A DNA stretch of 64,000 nucleotides, from NCBI RefSeq assembly GCF_002939305.1, contig NZ_MVDI01000001.1, forward strand, positions 558,001-622,000, given 5' to 3'. A program made the position numbers and the translations under genes. Position 1 is the first letter of the stretch; every line of letters begins with the position of its first letter. Of this stretch, positions 20,126 through 26,872 are shown in pieces. The notes below the pieces were generated by a model. That model did not search any database. It saw only the letters and a list, made by a program, of their open reading frames with translations, and was not told where the DNA came from. This DNA comes from Chroococcidiopsis sp. TS-821. GTDB lineage: Bacteria; Cyanobacteriota; Cyanobacteriia; Cyanobacteriales; Chroococcidiopsidaceae.

Positions 20126-21283
20126 ATGTTTGTATCTGAATCTATATTTTTAATTACAAACACAAAAATTAGTCCGGGAAAACAAATAAATTCTTACCAG
20201 CAAACAGCTTTAAAAATCATTGCACGTTTTCATGGAAAACGCGATGTAGTATTAGCAATTGATTTAACGGAAAGTGTTGGTATTAATAATGAAGGTCGTA
20301 TTCGGTTACAACAAATTATTGAGAAAAGTTTAAAACCTGGAGATTCGGTATATATTGTTCCTTTTGCAGCAGAAGTAACTCAACTGCAGGGAGTATCTAA
20401 CTTATATCCACTAGGAACGCCAGTTGAATTCAATAATAATCAAGAAATTTTTGATAAGATTTTTCAAAAAATTCCACTAGCAGCAGATTTAAAGTTACAA
20501 AATACAGATATTCAACAAGCAGAACTCACTATCTACCAAGGTTTAGCCCAACTCAATCAAAATCGTCTTCAACAAAATCAGCCAATTAGAGCGCAATCAG
20601 TTATTTGGGTTACTGATGCTCCTTTACTAGCCAAATCAGGAAACGATTGGATTGAAACTCCAGCCAATAGTCCTTTTCGAGTAGTAGATTCTACCTTAAG
20701 CAAAGAACGACAAGCATGGATTAACATCCTACCTTTAAATAAAAGAGAGCTAACGATTGAAAACTCAGCATCTCAACAATATAAGTTAGCTGTTGTCGAT
20801 ATAGAACCAACGGTGCAAGAGTTTTGTACAATTGCACCAAATAGTCAAGAAGTTTGTAAGGTTAACTCTTATCTATTAAGCCAATTGTGGCTACCTTCTC
20901 TATTAACTGCTTTCGGCTTGGTTTCGCTTATTTTATTAGTCAATTATCTCGTAAGCTTACGTAAAAAATGGCGCGTTTCAGTTTCTACAGATTTAGAAGA
21001 ATACGAGAAAGAATGTCGCCCTTTATTACCCGGAAAATCTCTGGCTATAGGGCAAGCTGATTCGAACTGCATTGATGAAATTGATTGTCCTGGTTCAGAA
21101 GTAAGAGGTTATTTAGAACGGCAAGGTAATCAACTTTATCTAGTACCAACTCAATTAGCTCCAATTCAATGGAATGGTAAAGAAGTCAATAAACGAACTC
21201 GCTTGACAGGAAGTTCTATTAAATTGAATTGTCCAGATAGTAAAGATAAAGATTTCTATTTAAATATTAAAGTTAAGAAATAG
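20126..21283 (+). CDS. vWA-domain membrane protein with FHA-like C-terminal domain
   Basis: A 385-aa protein. Residues 40-200 form a von Willebrand A fold with a MIDAS-like motif DLTES (Asp46, Thr48, Ser50) and a later WVTDAP near 161-166. One transmembrane helix lies at about 254-277. Residues 300-385 (SLAIGQADSN, then LERQGNQLYLVP and NGKEVNKRTRL) look like an FHA beta-sandwich, but the canonical phosphothreonine GR and SxxH residues are missing. There is no signal peptide. It is the first gene of a four-gene cluster with the tubulin-like gene 21 bases downstream. I infer an adaptor holding the system at the membrane. Confidence 0.85.
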   Translation: MFVSESIFLITNTKISPGKQINSYQQTALKIIARFHGKRDVVLAIDLTESVGINNEGRIRLQQIIEKSLKPGDSVYIVPFAAEVTQLQGVSNLYPLGTPVEFNNNQEIFDKIFQKIPLAADLKLQNTDIQQAELTIYQGLAQLNQNRLQQNQPIRAQSVIWVTDAPLLAKSGNDWIETPANSPFRVVDSTLSKERQAWINILPLNKRELTIENSASQQYKLAVVDIEPTVQEFCTIAPNSQEVCKVNSYLLSQLWLPSLLTAFGLVSLILLVNYLVSLRKKWRVSVSTDLEEYEKECRPLLPGKSLAIGQADSNCIDEIDCPGSEVRGYLERQGNQLYLVPTQLAPIQWNGKEVNKRTRLTGSSIKLNCPDSKDKDFYLNIKVKK

Positions 21284-21304
21284 TGACTTATTGAGAAAAC
21301 AGCT

Positions 21305-24300
21305 ATGTATAGTCAAAACTCTATAAATGAACGTCAATACCGAGGAATTAATCGCACTATTTGTATTGGTTTGGGTGGTACTGGTAGAGATGTTTTGATG
21401 CGCGTTCGTAGGCTAATTGTAGACCGCTATAAAAATTTAGATAATCTACCAGTAGTTAGTTTTGTTCATATTGATACAGACAAAGAAGCAACACAAGCTG
21501 TTAGCCTGCGAACAGGTAATATATACCAAGGTGTTGACTTAGGTTTTCAAGATGCAGAAAAAGTCAATGCTACAATGACTGCTACGCAAATTACAGAATT
21601 AGTTCAAGGGTTAGAGCAATGCAATCTAATTGGCGACCAACCCAGTCCTTACGCTCATATTGCTGAGTGGTTTCCACCTCAACTTTTAAGAAACATCAAA
21701 GCAATAGATCAAGGTGCAAAAGGTATTAGACCTATTGGTAGACTGTCATTTTTTCACAACTATTCAAAAATTAAACACGCGATAGAAATTGCTGAACAGC
21801 GTACGCGGGGACACGAGCGAGAATTACTGCAAAATTTCAGCTTGATTGTCGATCCTGGGCTAAATATTGTGGTTGTAGGTTCGTTGTGTGGTGGTACAGG
21901 TAGCGGTACTTTTTTAGATATGGCATATAGCTTACGATATGCCTACCCTGAAGTTAAACAACTTATTGGATATTTAGTTATTAGCCCAGAATTATACGGT
22001 AACACACCAAATATGTGTGCAAATACGTATGCAGCATTAATGGAGCTTGATTATTATTCAAGTCCTGGTACAACGTTTGAAGCCTGCTACGACCCAAGAT
22101 ATCACATTAGTGTGTGCGAAAAACGTCCTCCATTTGATTACACCTACCTAGTTTCTAAATCAACTGAACAAGGTAACTATGTTATCGATAAACAGCGCAA
22201 ACTTTGTAATGTTATTGCCAATAAAATTGCGCTAGATTTTTCTAGCGAGTTGGCTCCTGTTGTTAAGGGAATGCGTGATAACTTTGCGCAGCATCTTATT
22301 CAAGAAGACGATCACCCACGTCCTAATACTCAAAATTACCTGACTTTTGGTTTAGCGGCTATTTATTTTCCACGCGATCGCATTTCTCAAATCACAGTTA
22401 CGCGTATCAGTCATAAGCTTGTTAATTTTTGGTTGCAAGGGGAGGGACAAAGCCCCGATCCGCTAAAATTACTAGAGCAGTTTTTCATTGAGTATCATTG
22501 GCATAATAGCTTAGAGCAAAAGAACGGTCTAATCTCTAAGTTAGAAGACTTACCGCTAGAGAATGAGAAAAATTTTAATGCTTTGATGAACACTTGGAAA
22601 TCAAAGTTAGAAAATAAAATTACTGATTGTAAAACCAAAGAAGATCGTTCTAGCTTGCTGCGACAACTTCAAAGAGATTTTCGCGAACAATTTTATAAAA
22701 CTAAATCAGGAGATACAGAAAGTAATCGCGGAGCTTGGTTAACAAAAATTATAAAAGGCAAAGCTAGCTTAGCTACAAAACTTTGCGAAGATATTGACAG
22801 CTATTTATATAGCTTGCTTCAACCTAATAACCAATACTTCTCAATTACCAATAGTCGGAACTGGCTTGATGCGCTTCAATCCGAATTAAATACTTATCAA
22901 TACGAAATAGAATCAAAAATAAAAAGTTTTGATGGCGAGCGTACACTAGACCATTTAGAAAAAAAATGGTTACAAGTGAGTAAAATAGTGCAAGATATTG
23001 AAGAAGAATTTAAATTACTGTTCAATAATAAAAATAGTCGCGTTCAAGATGAAGCAAGAAGGGCAGTAAAAGAAACAGAATCAGCCATCAAACAAAATTT
23101 CAACTTATCTGTAGCATTAGAAGCTTTAGAAATTGTCAAAATCTTGCAGCAACACGTACAAACAAGAGCCAATCAATTAACTATTTTAAGTCGAGCAATA
23201 GAAACTTTAAAAAATGAATATGAAAAAGAACAAATAAGATTGAAACAATCGAATTCGGATGAAATGAGTGGTGAGGAGATTTTCTCCGAAGAAGATATAG
23301 AAAGTTGTTATGAAGCTTTATTACCTCAAAGAGAATATCGCGCTCAATCAATTCAAATCACTAAAAAAGTTTTAGAACATATTGCTGAAGGAGCCTCTTT
23401 AGCAGTTCTTCTTGTACAAAATCATATTGGGGCAGAACAACTAAAACAAGAAATTGACAATAAAGTAAACCAATTATTTGGTTCGCGGAGTGCAGATCTC
23501 ATACAATCAGTTATCAAGCGCTTCAACGAGAAATATCCTGTTTCAGAACGTGCAGTACGGCTAGGGCAAATTATCCGCGAAGCACAGCCACTACTACCGC
23601 TCAATCTTACTGCGCCTTATTTTCACAATAGTCTCGCTAAGAAGAGTCAACTTATTGGTTTTAAAGATACTGATGAATCAGAAGTACAACATTTTCATGA
23701 AGTTCTAACAAATAAATTAGCGATTCCTGATAATGAAATTAAATCTACTCAGCATGAAGATAAGGTTTTAATTGTTACAGAATATGCTGCTTTTCCTTTA
23801 AGATTAATTGATAATTTAGAGCAGCTTAGGAACCACTACATACGACAAAAAAATCAACCAGGAAATGCTCCATTACATAACCATCGAGGTGAAGGTTTTA
23901 CTGATATTGTACCGCCACCTGTTAAAGAAATGCTTGCTTTGCAAGATATTTTTTATCCTTGCTTAGCTTTAAATTTGATTCAAAATAATCCAGAAACTCA
24001 CCGACTTGAATTTCAATATTTTGATGAGTTACGCGGACAATACTATACTGCTTCTCTCGATCCAGCATGGAAAAAAGCTTTACAAGAATTAATTGATAAT
24101 AAGAATAAAGCAGCTGCACTCCAAGAATTACTAGATAGAGTTATCGAAGAAATAGAACATCAACCACGCAGATGGCACGAACACTACTTACCACAGCTTC
24201 GTAGGTTTGTACAGCAAGTTGATAACTTACCAGATAATCACGTGAATTATCCTTATCGTTTAAACGTCGTCGGTTCGCGAGGAAGTGATTCTACTATTGC

Positions 24301-24574
24301 AAGAGAAGGAGTTATTAATCGCTTCCAAGCAAAGATGCAGAAAAAATTTGTAGAAGATATATCTAGTAATAATGGTAATGCAAGCAATTCTAGCTCTAAA
24401 GTTCTCACAGGCGAAGTGATTTTGCTTGAGCCTGCTGTAGATATTGAAGATAATAGAACGCGACGTCGCATAGAAATCGAGCGTCTGAAGCAAGATCTCG
24501 CCGATGGTATTCTCACTCAAGAAGAATACGAGCACGAGCATCGACAAATTATAGCTAAGTATCCCTTGCGTTAG
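21305..24574 (+). CDS. Tubulin/FtsZ-like GTPase, large form, with SHOCT-like C-terminus
   Basis: A 1089-aa protein. Residues 19-29 (ICIGLGGTGRD) start a Rossmann-like fold, FVHIDTDK is at 53-60, and GSLCGGTGSGTF (192-203) is the tubulin signature loop that contacts GTP phosphates. The GTPase domain probably ends near 400. Residues about 400-800 are helical with coiled-coil stretches, and the rest is mixed. The last 30 residues (RLKQDLADGILTQEEYEHEH) look like a SHOCT motif, often a membrane- or partner-binding tail. Length far exceeds FtsZ. Its neighbours are vWA, MotA-like and OmpA-like genes. GTP use and polymerisation are inferred. Confidence 0.85.
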   Translation: MYSQNSINERQYRGINRTICIGLGGTGRDVLMRVRRLIVDRYKNLDNLPVVSFVHIDTDKEATQAVSLRTGNIYQGVDLGFQDAEKVNATMTATQITELVQGLEQCNLIGDQPSPYAHIAEWFPPQLLRNIKAIDQGAKGIRPIGRLSFFHNYSKIKHAIEIAEQRTRGHERELLQNFSLIVDPGLNIVVVGSLCGGTGSGTFLDMAYSLRYAYPEVKQLIGYLVISPELYGNTPNMCANTYAALMELDYYSSPGTTFEACYDPRYHISVCEKRPPFDYTYLVSKSTEQGNYVIDKQRKLCNVIANKIALDFSSELAPVVKGMRDNFAQHLIQEDDHPRPNTQNYLTFGLAAIYFPRDRISQITVTRISHKLVNFWLQGEGQSPDPLKLLEQFFIEYHWHNSLEQKNGLISKLEDLPLENEKNFNALMNTWKSKLENKITDCKTKEDRSSLLRQLQRDFREQFYKTKSGDTESNRGAWLTKIIKGKASLATKLCEDIDSYLYSLLQPNNQYFSITNSRNWLDALQSELNTYQYEIESKIKSFDGERTLDHLEKKWLQVSKIVQDIEEEFKLLFNNKNSRVQDEARRAVKETESAIKQNFNLSVALEALEIVKILQQHVQTRANQLTILSRAIETLKNEYEKEQIRLKQSNSDEMSGEEIFSEEDIESCYEALLPQREYRAQSIQITKKVLEHIAEGASLAVLLVQNHIGAEQLKQEIDNKVNQLFGSRSADLIQSVIKRFNEKYPVSERAVRLGQIIREAQPLLPLNLTAPYFHNSLAKKSQLIGFKDTDESEVQHFHEVLTNKLAIPDNEIKSTQHEDKVLIVTEYAAFPLRLIDNLEQLRNHYIRQKNQPGNAPLHNHRGEGFTDIVPPPVKEMLALQDIFYPCLALNLIQNNPETHRLEFQYFDELRGQYYTASLDPAWKKALQELIDNKNKAAALQELLDRVIEEIEHQPRRWHEHYLPQLRRFVQQVDNLPDNHVNYPYRLNVVGSRGSDSTIAREGVINRFQAKMQKKFVEDISSNNGNASNSSSKVLTGEVILLEPAVDIEDNRTRRRIEIERLKQDLADGILTQEEYEHEHRQIIAKYPLR

Positions 24575-24682
24575 CGAACAGGGTGGGTGTTGCCTACTCT
24601 GTTGAGTATACCTAATCTTATAGCCCTAGTCAGTGGAGTGAGTAGATCTTCCTGACTATAATAAACCTTGCCCCTACTACAT
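24575..24682 (+). other. Leader with two hairpins inside the cluster
   Basis: The 108-base gap before the ZorA-like gene contains AACAG...CTGTT (about 24578-24604, extended by GTGGG/CCTAC) and AGTCAG...CTGACT (about 24629-24657). Neither is followed by a U-run. Other gaps in the cluster are 18-21 bases, so this may be an mRNA processing or attenuation site that sets different levels for the channel genes. Confidence 0.45.
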
Positions 24683-26191
24683 ATGGAAAATTTTATATCT
24701 ACTTTACCACCGATTCTACTATTCAGTATATTTTTATTTGTTGTCTTACCTTCTTTTGCCGCTATTTTTTTGCGCTCAACTCTTTATAACAAACTTGTTT
24801 TCCTAGAAAGTCGTGTAAGAAGACTTATCAATCGTACTCAACGCGGACAGCAACCAGACATTATCAAAGAGTTAGAACGGCGCTTTAAAGAAGCTAGCAC
24901 AGATCTCGATCGAGTTAATACAGCAGCTTTAATTGAACAAATTTATAGTCAGCAAAAAATTGGTCTTTTTTCTTATGACCAAATTGAATATTTTTGCCGA
25001 ATTTTACCTAATTTGCTTTTAGCATTTGGCTTGCTTGGAACTTTTTTAGGTATTACATTAAACTTAAGTCAGCTAAGTCAAACTATTACTAATAATACTG
25101 TAGTAAGTAAAAATATAGATAGTTTATTAGAGCAATTACAGCAACCTTTGCAAGCAATGAGTATTGCTTTCTCTACTAGCTTAACTGCAATACTTTTTAG
25201 TGCTTCAATAACAGCCTTCAATTTAATTAAAAATACAAGCGTAGCTAAATATAAACTAATCATCTCGATTGAAGACTATTTAGATAATATTTATCAATCC
25301 GAAATTCAAGGAAATCATCGATTGGACAAGGCTGTAGATCGATTAGTTTTTGAGTTTAAAGACTTTTTAGGCAGGTTCGGTATAACTGTACGCGATGCAG
25401 TCGAATCTTCACTTGGAGCTAAGATTCAAGAAATCGTGGATGTCAACAAACAGGCTAATGAACTTGCTTGTCGTGTTTACAGAGGATTTCAAGAATCATC
25501 TGGTACTTTTGCAAAAAGTGTTGACGATCTACAAACAGCTACAACTACGTTTGTACAAACAGCTCAAATATTTGAAGGCAGTAATTTTGCTCAAACTCTA
25601 GCCAGTGCTGCGAAAGATTTATATGTTATCCAAAATAAATTTAATCATTCAACTGAAGTATTATGTGAGTCAGTATCAACAATTGAAACAGCAGTAGTTG
25701 AAAGTATCAATACAAACAACAAATTATTAGATTTGTGCAGAAAAATAGATAATTATAATCAAAGTGCAATTCAAACTTTAGAATTACATCAAAATAATCA
25801 ACAATCTCTAAGCGAAATCATTCCTCAATTATACGAAGGGGGAGCTAAACTGCAATCTGCTATAGAAGTTCTTGATATACTACAGCAAAAAAACTTAGAC
25901 AAAGCAGATAGTTTTGAACGCGTAGAGATTGAACTTAAAACTTTAGCTGACACACTTAATAAATATAATCAAGTAGTAGCTGTCGGTTTGAAAAATTTAA
26001 GCGATCGCCTGATTGCAGGACTTGATGCACAATCAAGTAATCAACAGCAGCAAATGCAAATTATTGTAGAAAATTTAACTCATTGCACAAAGCATCTAAG
26101 TGATACCAAGCACGAAAGCTATCGCTTAAATAAACTTTTAGAGAAGCAGCTAATCGTAGATAAAAGTCGCAAACAGCATTCATTAAGATAA
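24683..26191 (+). CDS. MotA/TolQ/ExbB channel protein with long coiled tail (ZorA-like)
   Basis: About 502 aa from ATG 24683; a TTG at 24668 would add 5 residues. Membrane helices lie near 8-30, 108-127 (ILPNLLLAFGLLGTFLGITL) and 158-182 (MSIAFSTSLTAILFSASITA), the arrangement of MotA/TolQ/ExbB proton-channel subunits. Residues about 210-500 form a long, mostly helical cytoplasmic tail, as in ZorA of the Zorya anti-phage system. The OmpA/MotB-like partner follows 18 bases later. I infer an ion-driven rotary stator whose tail reaches into the cytoplasm. It is not the flagellar MotA, as no flagellar genes are present. Confidence 0.88.
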   Translation: MENFISTLPPILLFSIFLFVVLPSFAAIFLRSTLYNKLVFLESRVRRLINRTQRGQQPDIIKELERRFKEASTDLDRVNTAALIEQIYSQQKIGLFSYDQIEYFCRILPNLLLAFGLLGTFLGITLNLSQLSQTITNNTVVSKNIDSLLEQLQQPLQAMSIAFSTSLTAILFSASITAFNLIKNTSVAKYKLIISIEDYLDNIYQSEIQGNHRLDKAVDRLVFEFKDFLGRFGITVRDAVESSLGAKIQEIVDVNKQANELACRVYRGFQESSGTFAKSVDDLQTATTTFVQTAQIFEGSNFAQTLASAAKDLYVIQNKFNHSTEVLCESVSTIETAVVESINTNNKLLDLCRKIDNYNQSAIQTLELHQNNQQSLSEIIPQLYEGGAKLQSAIEVLDILQQKNLDKADSFERVEIELKTLADTLNKYNQVVAVGLKNLSDRLIAGLDAQSSNQQQQMQIIVENLTHCTKHLSDTKHESYRLNKLLEKQLIVDKSRKQHSLR

Positions 26192-26209
26192 TTTTTAATT
26201 AAAACTTAT

Positions 26210-26872
26210 ATGCGTAACTCTAACAGGCAAACTCAACAAACATATGAAGAATTAAATGTTTGGTCTGCGTTTACAGACTTGATGTCCAATACATTTATGA
26301 TAGCTATGTTGTTTTTATTATTAGCTCTCGTTAAAGGTGCGATCGCGCAAACTGAAGTTGCAGAAATTCAAACTCCCAAAAGCCCTCCTCCCATACTTGT
26401 AATTGAAGACGAAGGCGCTTACAGATTCGCTTCAGGAAGTGCGGAAATTCCACCAATTATGAATGCATACATCAACAATAAAATTGTTCCAGAAATTGAG
26501 CGCAATACAAAAGAATATCAAATTAACGTTGTAGAAATTATCGGTCACACTGACGGTCAAGGCAACGGTAACGCTGCTAGTAACTTAGACCAAAACTTAG
26601 AAAAAGTCGCCAACGGAAGTATACCTGTAAGACAACTCAAAGCAGGGTCTAATGCTGACCTTGGATTGATGCGTGCTTTAGCAGTTGTTAAAGTTTTGCA
26701 GGATGTTCAATCTAAAGGAAAGCTAAAAGGTTTAAAATTTAGAGCTTATTCCGCTGCACAACTAATCTTACCCAATGGCAATTTTGCATCTGTCAATCGC
26801 CAACCAGATGCAACGCGGCGACGTATTGAAATTCGTTTTACTCGCCCAGGCGAGCCAATTAAGGTGAAGTAA
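26210..26872 (+). CDS. MotB/OmpA-domain protein (ZorB-like)
   Basis: A 220-aa protein. After a short cytoplasmic start, residues 18-45 form one transmembrane helix led by WSAFTDLMSNTFMIAMLF; Asp23 is at the position of the ion-carrying aspartate of MotB/ZorB. Residues about 75-215 are an OmpA-like peptidoglycan-binding domain with FASGSAEIPP, VVEIIGHTDGQG and RQPDATRRRIEIRF. An insertion between the strands (about 120-150) resembles ZorB more than MotB. It is the last gene of the cluster and would anchor the motor to the cell wall. Confidence 0.9.
   Translation: MRNSNRQTQQTYEELNVWSAFTDLMSNTFMIAMLFLLLALVKGAIAQTEVAEIQTPKSPPPILVIEDEGAYRFASGSAEIPPIMNAYINNKIVPEIERNTKEYQINVVEIIGHTDGQGNGNAASNLDQNLEKVANGSIPVRQLKAGSNADLGLMRALAVVKVLQDVQSKGKLKGLKFRAYSAAQLILPNGNFASVNRQPDATRRRIEIRFTRPGEPIKVK

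Follow-up and report, generated by a model that had tools for sequence, protein, structure and literature searches.

A ZorAB-like stator pair encoded with a tubulin-like GTPase and a vWA protein in cyanobacteria

The FtsZl1 family of tubulin-like GTPases was defined by Makarova and Koonin in 2010, with vWA and OmpA-family proteins as operon neighbours and with examples that include cyanobacteria and Deinococcus (PMC2875224). Its members carry an FtsZ-like domain at the N-terminus, followed by a long, helical stretch that makes up the middle and C-terminus; the T6-H7 elements and the second tubulin domain were not found by sequence, and canonical filaments were doubted (PMC2875224). Genes for Ser/Thr kinases or P-loop GTPases are frequent, not universal, in these operons, and the OmpA protein was taken as a porin or peptidoglycan protein with no MotA/ZorA-like subunit named (PMC2875224). 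Here we analyze a four-gene set in a 64,000-nucleotide stretch of the Chroococcidiopsis sp. TS-821 genome (the window). The set encodes a vWA protein, a tubulin-like GTPase of this family, and two proteins that resemble the stator subunits ZorA and ZorB of Zorya systems; the latter two are abbreviated ZA and ZB in all counts below.

The set shares with FtsZl1 operons the tubulin-like family, the helical middle and C-terminus, and the vWA and OmpA neighbours. It differs from the 2010 description in that the OmpA protein has a motor aspartate and a ZorA-like partner and in that the model of the GTPase gives a complete tubulin fold. There is no Ser/Thr kinase or P-loop GTPase gene among the four, and the flanks hold housekeeping genes. 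A literature search, with subscription journals, most preprints and supplements outside its range, returned no report of a MotA/ZorA-like subunit, of Zorya likeness or of motor coupling with FtsZl1; the unnamed families in the supplement of the 2010 paper, also outside that range, may include such a gene. Because no paper was found that reports this subunit, the motor coupling appears to be the new part, the tubulin/vWA/OmpA part having been predicted in 2010. An earlier note, made from the sequence alone, had suggested that the coupling to a stator pair is new. This holds for the MotA/ZorA-like subunit, which was not found in the literature, but not for the OmpA protein, whose association with vWA was already listed (PMC2875224).

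Other systems invite comparison. ZA and ZB resemble ZorA and ZorB in the pore threonine and serine, the aspartate of the ZorB helix, the OmpA peptidoglycan domain and the long cytoplasmic ZorA tail. Unlike Zorya, the set has tubulin and vWA partners in place of ZorC/D, ZorE or ZorF/G, the ZB domain has an insertion of its own, and the similarity of ZA and ZB to the Zorya proteins is weak (E 1e-10 to 1e-6). The likeness to MotAB, ExbBD and TolQR lies in the ion-path residues and in how the ZA pore region folds (Z 10-11); here there is no Pfam MotA_ExbB match and no rotor, TonB or TolA partner, and the ZA tail is long. For tubulin and vWA systems of other phyla, Kaur et al. (2020, PMC7159879) put forward a role as conflict systems. 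These GTPase-centric systems likewise combine a tubulin that has a coiled-coil region with a membrane vWA protein, and in Firmicutes and Actinobacteria they include GAP1/DO-GTPases, HSP70 or FNIII (PMC7159879), none of which is present here; no GAP1/DO-type GTPase gene was found in the set. Finally, vWA-TolQ motor systems also have a vWA gene adjoining a 5:2 motor gene, but there the vWA protein itself gives the pore helix or transduces force (PMC12204202), whereas a separate ZorB-like gene and a tubulin are present here.

Conservation of the four genes

The open reading frames and their coordinates confirmed the four co-directional genes described in the earlier note. They occupy window positions 20126-26872, all on the + strand, in the order vWA protein, tubulin-like GTPase, ZA and ZB, with gaps of 21 nucleotides (vWA/tubulin), 108 nucleotides (tubulin/ZA) and 18 nucleotides (ZA/ZB). 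The start of ZA was taken at a conserved ATG (24683); the mechanical reading frame begins at a TTG (24668).

When 84,980 species genomes were scanned with a tubulin profile, 80 loci from named genomes were kept, all of them cyanobacterial as judged by title. At 70 of the 80, all four genes lie within 8 kb. Most of the ten incomplete loci reach contig ends, and at two of them (L076 and L144) the tubulin gene stands by itself although the flanks are long enough. Among all loci gathered, 79 of 81 complete ones keep the order vWA-tubulin-ZA-ZB on one strand, and the complete loci span many families with differing flanks. The four genes thus form a single conserved unit.

The pattern of co-occurrence was examined in two sets of genomes. 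Of 292 cyanobacterial genomes sampled from the phylum, 35 have a tubulin gene of this clade. ZB was found in 34 of the 35 tubulin-positive genomes as compared with 13 of the 257 tubulin-negative ones (Fisher P 1.5e-32, not corrected for kinship), and the remaining tubulin-positive genome (G315) has a 46-residue ZB fragment. The earlier note had proposed that the genes would be neighbours by chance if the stator genes usually occurred without the vWA and tubulin-like genes; overall this is not the case, as 34 of the 47 genomes with ZB in this sample are tubulin-positive. Among 100 nearer relatives, the tubulin gene is present in 31 genomes, the vWA gene in 31 and both in 29. In the two vWA-only genomes (G002 and G012), the tubulin gene has been deleted or survives as a remnant; of the tubulin-only genomes, one (G005) is a truncated contig and the other (G043) has a lone gene. 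The vWA gene never occurred apart from the tubulin gene or what remains of it: 29 of 31 genomes have both, and the other two are the deletion derivatives. One genome, G030, retains all parts in dispersed form, with vWA-tubulin at 22 kb, ZA at 2.18 Mb and ZB at 2.93 Mb.

The dnaN-MIF site in the family of the window carries two different deletions of the unit (loci L063 and L235). In G002 the deletion took out ZA, the first part of ZB and the greater part of the tubulin gene; in G010 it took out the vWA and tubulin genes together with residues 1-191 of ZA. In this family the unit is a dispensable gene set that is retained at one site, with at least two different routes of loss.

The four proteins

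The identities that the earlier note had assigned to the four proteins are supported by profiles, alignments and predicted fold, and the ZorA/ZorB-like anatomy it had described is borne out by the pore residues, helical tail, aspartate and OmpA domain, though sequence similarity is weak. ZA has no match in Pfam, MotA_ExbB included. It matched PADLOC ZorA1 at E 2e-10 and NCBIfam ZorA_2 at E 1e-6, the latter short of NCBI's cut-off, and a profile of its pore region, where hydrophobic pore segments are found, retrieved solely ZorA chains from the PDB below E 0.01. The fold search was discarded as proof of ZorA over TolQ or ExbB, since the three were tied at Z 10-11; it is the sequence profile that discriminates. 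ZA is longer when linked to tubulin than when unlinked (median 550 versus 472 amino acids, P 1.7e-5, not corrected for kinship). ZB matched PADLOC ZorB1 at E 5e-7 and OmpA at E 7e-4. Its residues G112, H113, T114, D115, S147, D150 and R155 are conserved in 87/87 sequences, and R203 and R205 in 86/86. Among families and solved structures, the pair is nearest to ZorA and ZorB.

The tubulin-like protein matched Pfam Tubulin_2 (PF13809) at E 2e-102 over residues 19-373, covering 355 of 356 profile positions. The AlphaFold2 model (predicted local distance difference test, pLDDT, 79.6) shows a GTPase domain (~15-380), a helical insertion (~380-770), a second tubulin domain (~780-874) and a mostly helical C-terminus, with the helical middle and C-terminus as in FtsZl1. 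The model aligned with CetZ at Z 24.6 and a root mean square deviation of 3.6 over 300 residues. As these residues are spread over 15-854, both tubulin domains are apparently present, and the protein appears in the model to have a complete two-domain tubulin/CetZ fold that is split by a ~390-residue helical insertion. An alignment of the FtsZ profile with that of the tubulin-like protein is limited to the T4 region with none at E315. For this reason, the assignment of DFSSE as the putative T7 loop, with E315 as its acid, depends on their place in the model and on conservation. The tubulin-like profile retrieved nothing related from the sequences of solved structures, and a single distant match was found in phages.

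The vWA protein alone has no family match. The profile of its family, whose members are 42-83% identical to it, matched a Pfam-recognised vWA family at E 1.5e-4, and the metal ion-dependent adhesion site (MIDAS) residues D46-x-T48-x-S50, D128 and D164 are invariant in an alignment of 28 relatives. The vWA assignment follows from these two observations. A cysteine pair, C234/C244, is also invariant, and we would guess from sequence that the C-terminal beta-rich domain is FHA-like. A search of the vWA profile against the sequences of solved structures returned nothing related.

Table 1 Coordinates of the four genes and their features in the window
Feature	Position	Strand	Remarks
vWA protein, 385 amino acids	20126..21283	+	open reading frame; N-terminal vWA domain, one transmembrane helix, C-terminal beta-rich domain
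MIDAS D46-x-T48-x-S50	20261..20275	+	80/80 where column filled
Single transmembrane helix of vWA protein, residues 254-272	20885..20941	+	hydropathy 2.25
FtsZl1/Tubulin_2 GTPase, 1089 amino acids	21305..24574	+	PF13809, AlphaFold2 model, CetZ fold match
T1 loop GLGGTG, residues 22-27	21368..21385	+	conserved
T4 GTP loop GSLCGGTGSG, residues 192-201	21878..21907	+	G196, G197, T198, S200, G201 in 84/84 filled; aligned with FtsZ T4
Putative T7 catalytic loop DFSSE (D311, F312, E315)	22235..22249	+	F312 84/85, E315 84/85; between model helices 297-312 and 317-334
ZorA-like subunit (ZA), 502 amino acids	24683..26191	+	pore region ~1-215, long helical cytoplasmic tail ~215-502
Pore threonine T120	25040..25042	+	84/85; aligned to ZorA GTF motif
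Pore serine S166	25178..25180	+	86/86
ZA helical tail from ~residue 240	25400..26188	+	all-helix, low-confidence model; length very variable among genomes
ZorB-like subunit (ZB), 220 amino acids	26210..26872	+	short N-terminus, one transmembrane helix, OmpA-like peptidoglycan-binding domain
Ion-carrying aspartate D23	26276..26278	+	87/87
OmpA-like domain with GHTD (112-115), SNADLGLMRA (147-156), RRRIE (203-207)	26402..26848	+	conserved residues

Relatives and neighbouring genes

A similar arrangement recurs on Deinococcus plasmids, where a vWA-like protein with a transmembrane helix, a 108-residue protein with three transmembrane helices, a tubulin, a MotA and an OmpA protein are followed by a repeat-rich protein of ~860 amino acids and a beta-helix protein (L250:6349-17089, L256:6387-17080 and L257:5883-16668). 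The Deinococcus tubulin is ~26% identical to the cyanobacterial one. By eye, the motor proteins retain the GLLGTVLG and ASLW pore motifs and a transmembrane aspartate.

Other arrangements were also encountered. Rhizobial plasmids (L252:4090-8501, L253:3727-8474 and L254:3689-8516) have a four-gene operon whose last gene encodes an OmpA protein resembling ZB (profile E 1e-42) and which includes a vWA-like 274-residue protein and a coiled-coil protein with two transmembrane helices; it has no tubulin, and the transmembrane aspartate is seemingly replaced by glutamate. In Azospirillum (L251), the neighbours of a tubulin-like gene include several OmpA genes and two genes of the caspase family. Short-tailed ZA/ZB pairs were seen at L223-L231, several directly beside phoH, and several of the host genomes also carry the four-gene unit. 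At L215-L219 and L220-L222, a stand-alone ZA (with ZB where found) adjoins hisS or recR, and the surroundings lack any tubulin gene of this clade.

The window belongs to a cyanobacterial genome of 5.2 Mb whose nearest named relative found is Gloeocapsopsis. The unit has a GC content of 35% against a background of 44%, ~9 points below the rest of the window, and in 75 of the 76 loci tested it is below its own flanks. Its neighbours in the window are dnaN, an ArsA-type ATPase, MIF and a flavin reductase and, as judged from sequence, a precorrin methyltransferase, lgt and rlmN. Promoters were no commoner than in shuffles when the sequence was scanned for promoters and terminators. Neighbours common to up to 21 loci (psbO, a sigma factor, an ABC transporter, ycf48 and icd) were considered as a fifth component and rejected, as they probably reflect lineage synteny. 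Elsewhere in the same genome (C1:99395, L243:8988-11597), another long MotA_ExbB-type protein of 484 amino acids is followed by genes for proteins of 153 and 248 amino acids, possibly an ExbB/ExbD/TonB-like set.

What the unit may do

The reading we favour, with about even confidence, is that of a peptidoglycan-anchored membrane motor-GTPase machine in which the ZA tail acts on a vWA-assisted tubulin-like GTPase. ZA, probably in five copies, and ZB, in two, would make up a 5:2 stator driven by ions, as in ZorAB, ExbBD and MotAB. The OmpA domains of ZB would grip the peptidoglycan, and the helical tail of ZA would extend into the cytoplasm, where the tubulin-like GTPase may be its partner. The membrane-tethered vWA protein could be a metal-dependent adaptor that recruits or clamps the GTPase at the motor. 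Ion flow, or its release upon envelope disturbance, would move the tail, and this movement may switch or drive the assembly, with GTP, of the tubulin-like protein on the membrane. As for its output, we slightly favour a role in envelope maintenance or stress in cyanobacteria over dedicated phage defence. It is unlikely, in our estimate, that the stator is specifically a proton- or sodium-driven rotary one, anchored in the peptidoglycan, whose tail acts on a filament of the tubulin-like kind.

The motor-GTPase reading is supported by the 70 of 80 four-gene loci and the 79 of 81 with constant order, the co-occurrence of tubulin and ZB, and the restriction of vWA to tubulin genomes. It is supported also by the near-invariance of D23, T120, S166, the peptidoglycan-binding residues, the MIDAS, T4 and E315. 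The kinship with ZorA and ZorB, the CetZ fold, the longer tubulin-linked ZA, the recurrence in Deinococcus and the dispersed parts retained by G030 point in the same direction.

Several observations weigh against it. The ZA model is weak (pLDDT 61), and the topology of the vWA protein is ambiguous: a signal peptide is absent in most members, yet the charges after the transmembrane helix suggest a cytoplasmic C-terminus. Thermus and Allomeiothermus plasmids carry vWA-tubulin pairs without a stator (L249 and L255), near brxL, RecQ and helicases. A second, diverged cyanobacterial Tubulin_2 clade, 26-37% identical, is without a stator where neighbours were checked; its neighbours (L065, L067, L069, L070, L072, L073 and L074) are a vWA protein of ~300 amino acids and a Peripla_BP_6/TPR periplasmic-binding protein of ~540. 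From these arrangements in other phyla and in the second clade, vWA and tubulin appear to be the core, with the stator pair as a partner in at least two phyla. Conversely, ZA/ZB pairs without tubulin exist beside hisS, phoH, recR, resB and other genes, and in 19-22 of the 100 nearer relatives ZA or ZB is present while the tubulin gene is absent. Since such pairs occur without tubulin or vWA, the motor may serve a purpose independent of them. In a quick tree of ZA and ZB, which alone cannot separate gain from loss, the stand-alone pairs form six or seven clades within the tubulin-linked diversity, with seven changes needed, and several genomes contain both kinds of pair. Being nested in this way, the stand-alone pairs look like derived losses or duplicated copies.

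Possibly, though less likely than not, the tubulin-like protein works as a GTPase switch or scaffold that does not polymerise and forms no filament. The ~390-residue helical insertion, together with the helical region added at the C-terminus, could stand in the way of longitudinal contacts, in keeping with the doubts about filaments expressed in 2010 (PMC2875224). On the other hand, the model has a complete two-domain tubulin fold, and the acid E315 is conserved at the putative T7.

We regard as somewhat unlikely, but as a live rival, a Zorya-like anti-phage defence in which the motor senses envelope disturbance caused by phage and its tail signals to the GTPase and vWA protein as an effector that replaces ZorC/D, ZorE or ZorF/G. 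The stator pair is indeed nearest to ZorA and ZorB, the GC content is low, and the distribution is patchy (35/292 genomes), with repeated independent decay at one locus. Outside cyanobacteria, relatives adjoin defence-like genes, namely those near the Thermus and Allomeiothermus pairs and the caspase-family genes of Azospirillum, which is what keeps this rival alive; the proposal of conflict systems in other phyla (PMC7159879) also favours it. The cyanobacterial context, however, does not support the suggestion of defence in the earlier note. The flanks are of housekeeping character (dnaN, MIF, psbO, icd and ycf48), and no PADLOC match was found near the unit in the window. The flanks of 28 loci were no richer in such matches than those of stand-alone stators (135 versus 132 proteins; the 25 commonest families among the matches listed). 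The unit occupies fixed chromosomal sites within lineages and is without a nuclease. A PADLOC scan of the four unit proteins and ten neighbouring window proteins detected none of the ZorC-G effectors, as had been stated from the sequence. The unit should not be classed as Zorya.

It is rather improbable that the operon holds two modules that are transcribed together but mechanistically separate, with ZA/ZB as an envelope motor of the Tol/Ton kind and vWA/tubulin as a device independent of it. The stand-alone pairs and the vWA/tubulin relatives without a stator would fit such a division. Yet the vWA and tubulin of this clade are almost never without ZA/ZB, the stand-alone pairs branch as several nested, derived clades, and the coupling recurs in Deinococcus. 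That the four genes are neighbours by chance, as the existence of stand-alone pairs might hint, can practically be dismissed, as it is refuted by the counts of order kept across many families with different flanks.

With the motor-GTPase machine as the favoured reading, the 2010 prediction of FtsZl1 with vWA and OmpA gains its missing engine, the OmpA gene being half of a ZorAB-like motor. Zorya-type motors are extended beyond nuclease effectors to a tubulin-like GTPase, and the question is testable in culturable cyanobacteria and Deinococcus. We know of no characterised system that couples ion-motive force to a tubulin cytoskeleton. If it is true that the motor drives or gates tubulin assembly, this would be a first link of ion-motive force to a tubulin-family protein.

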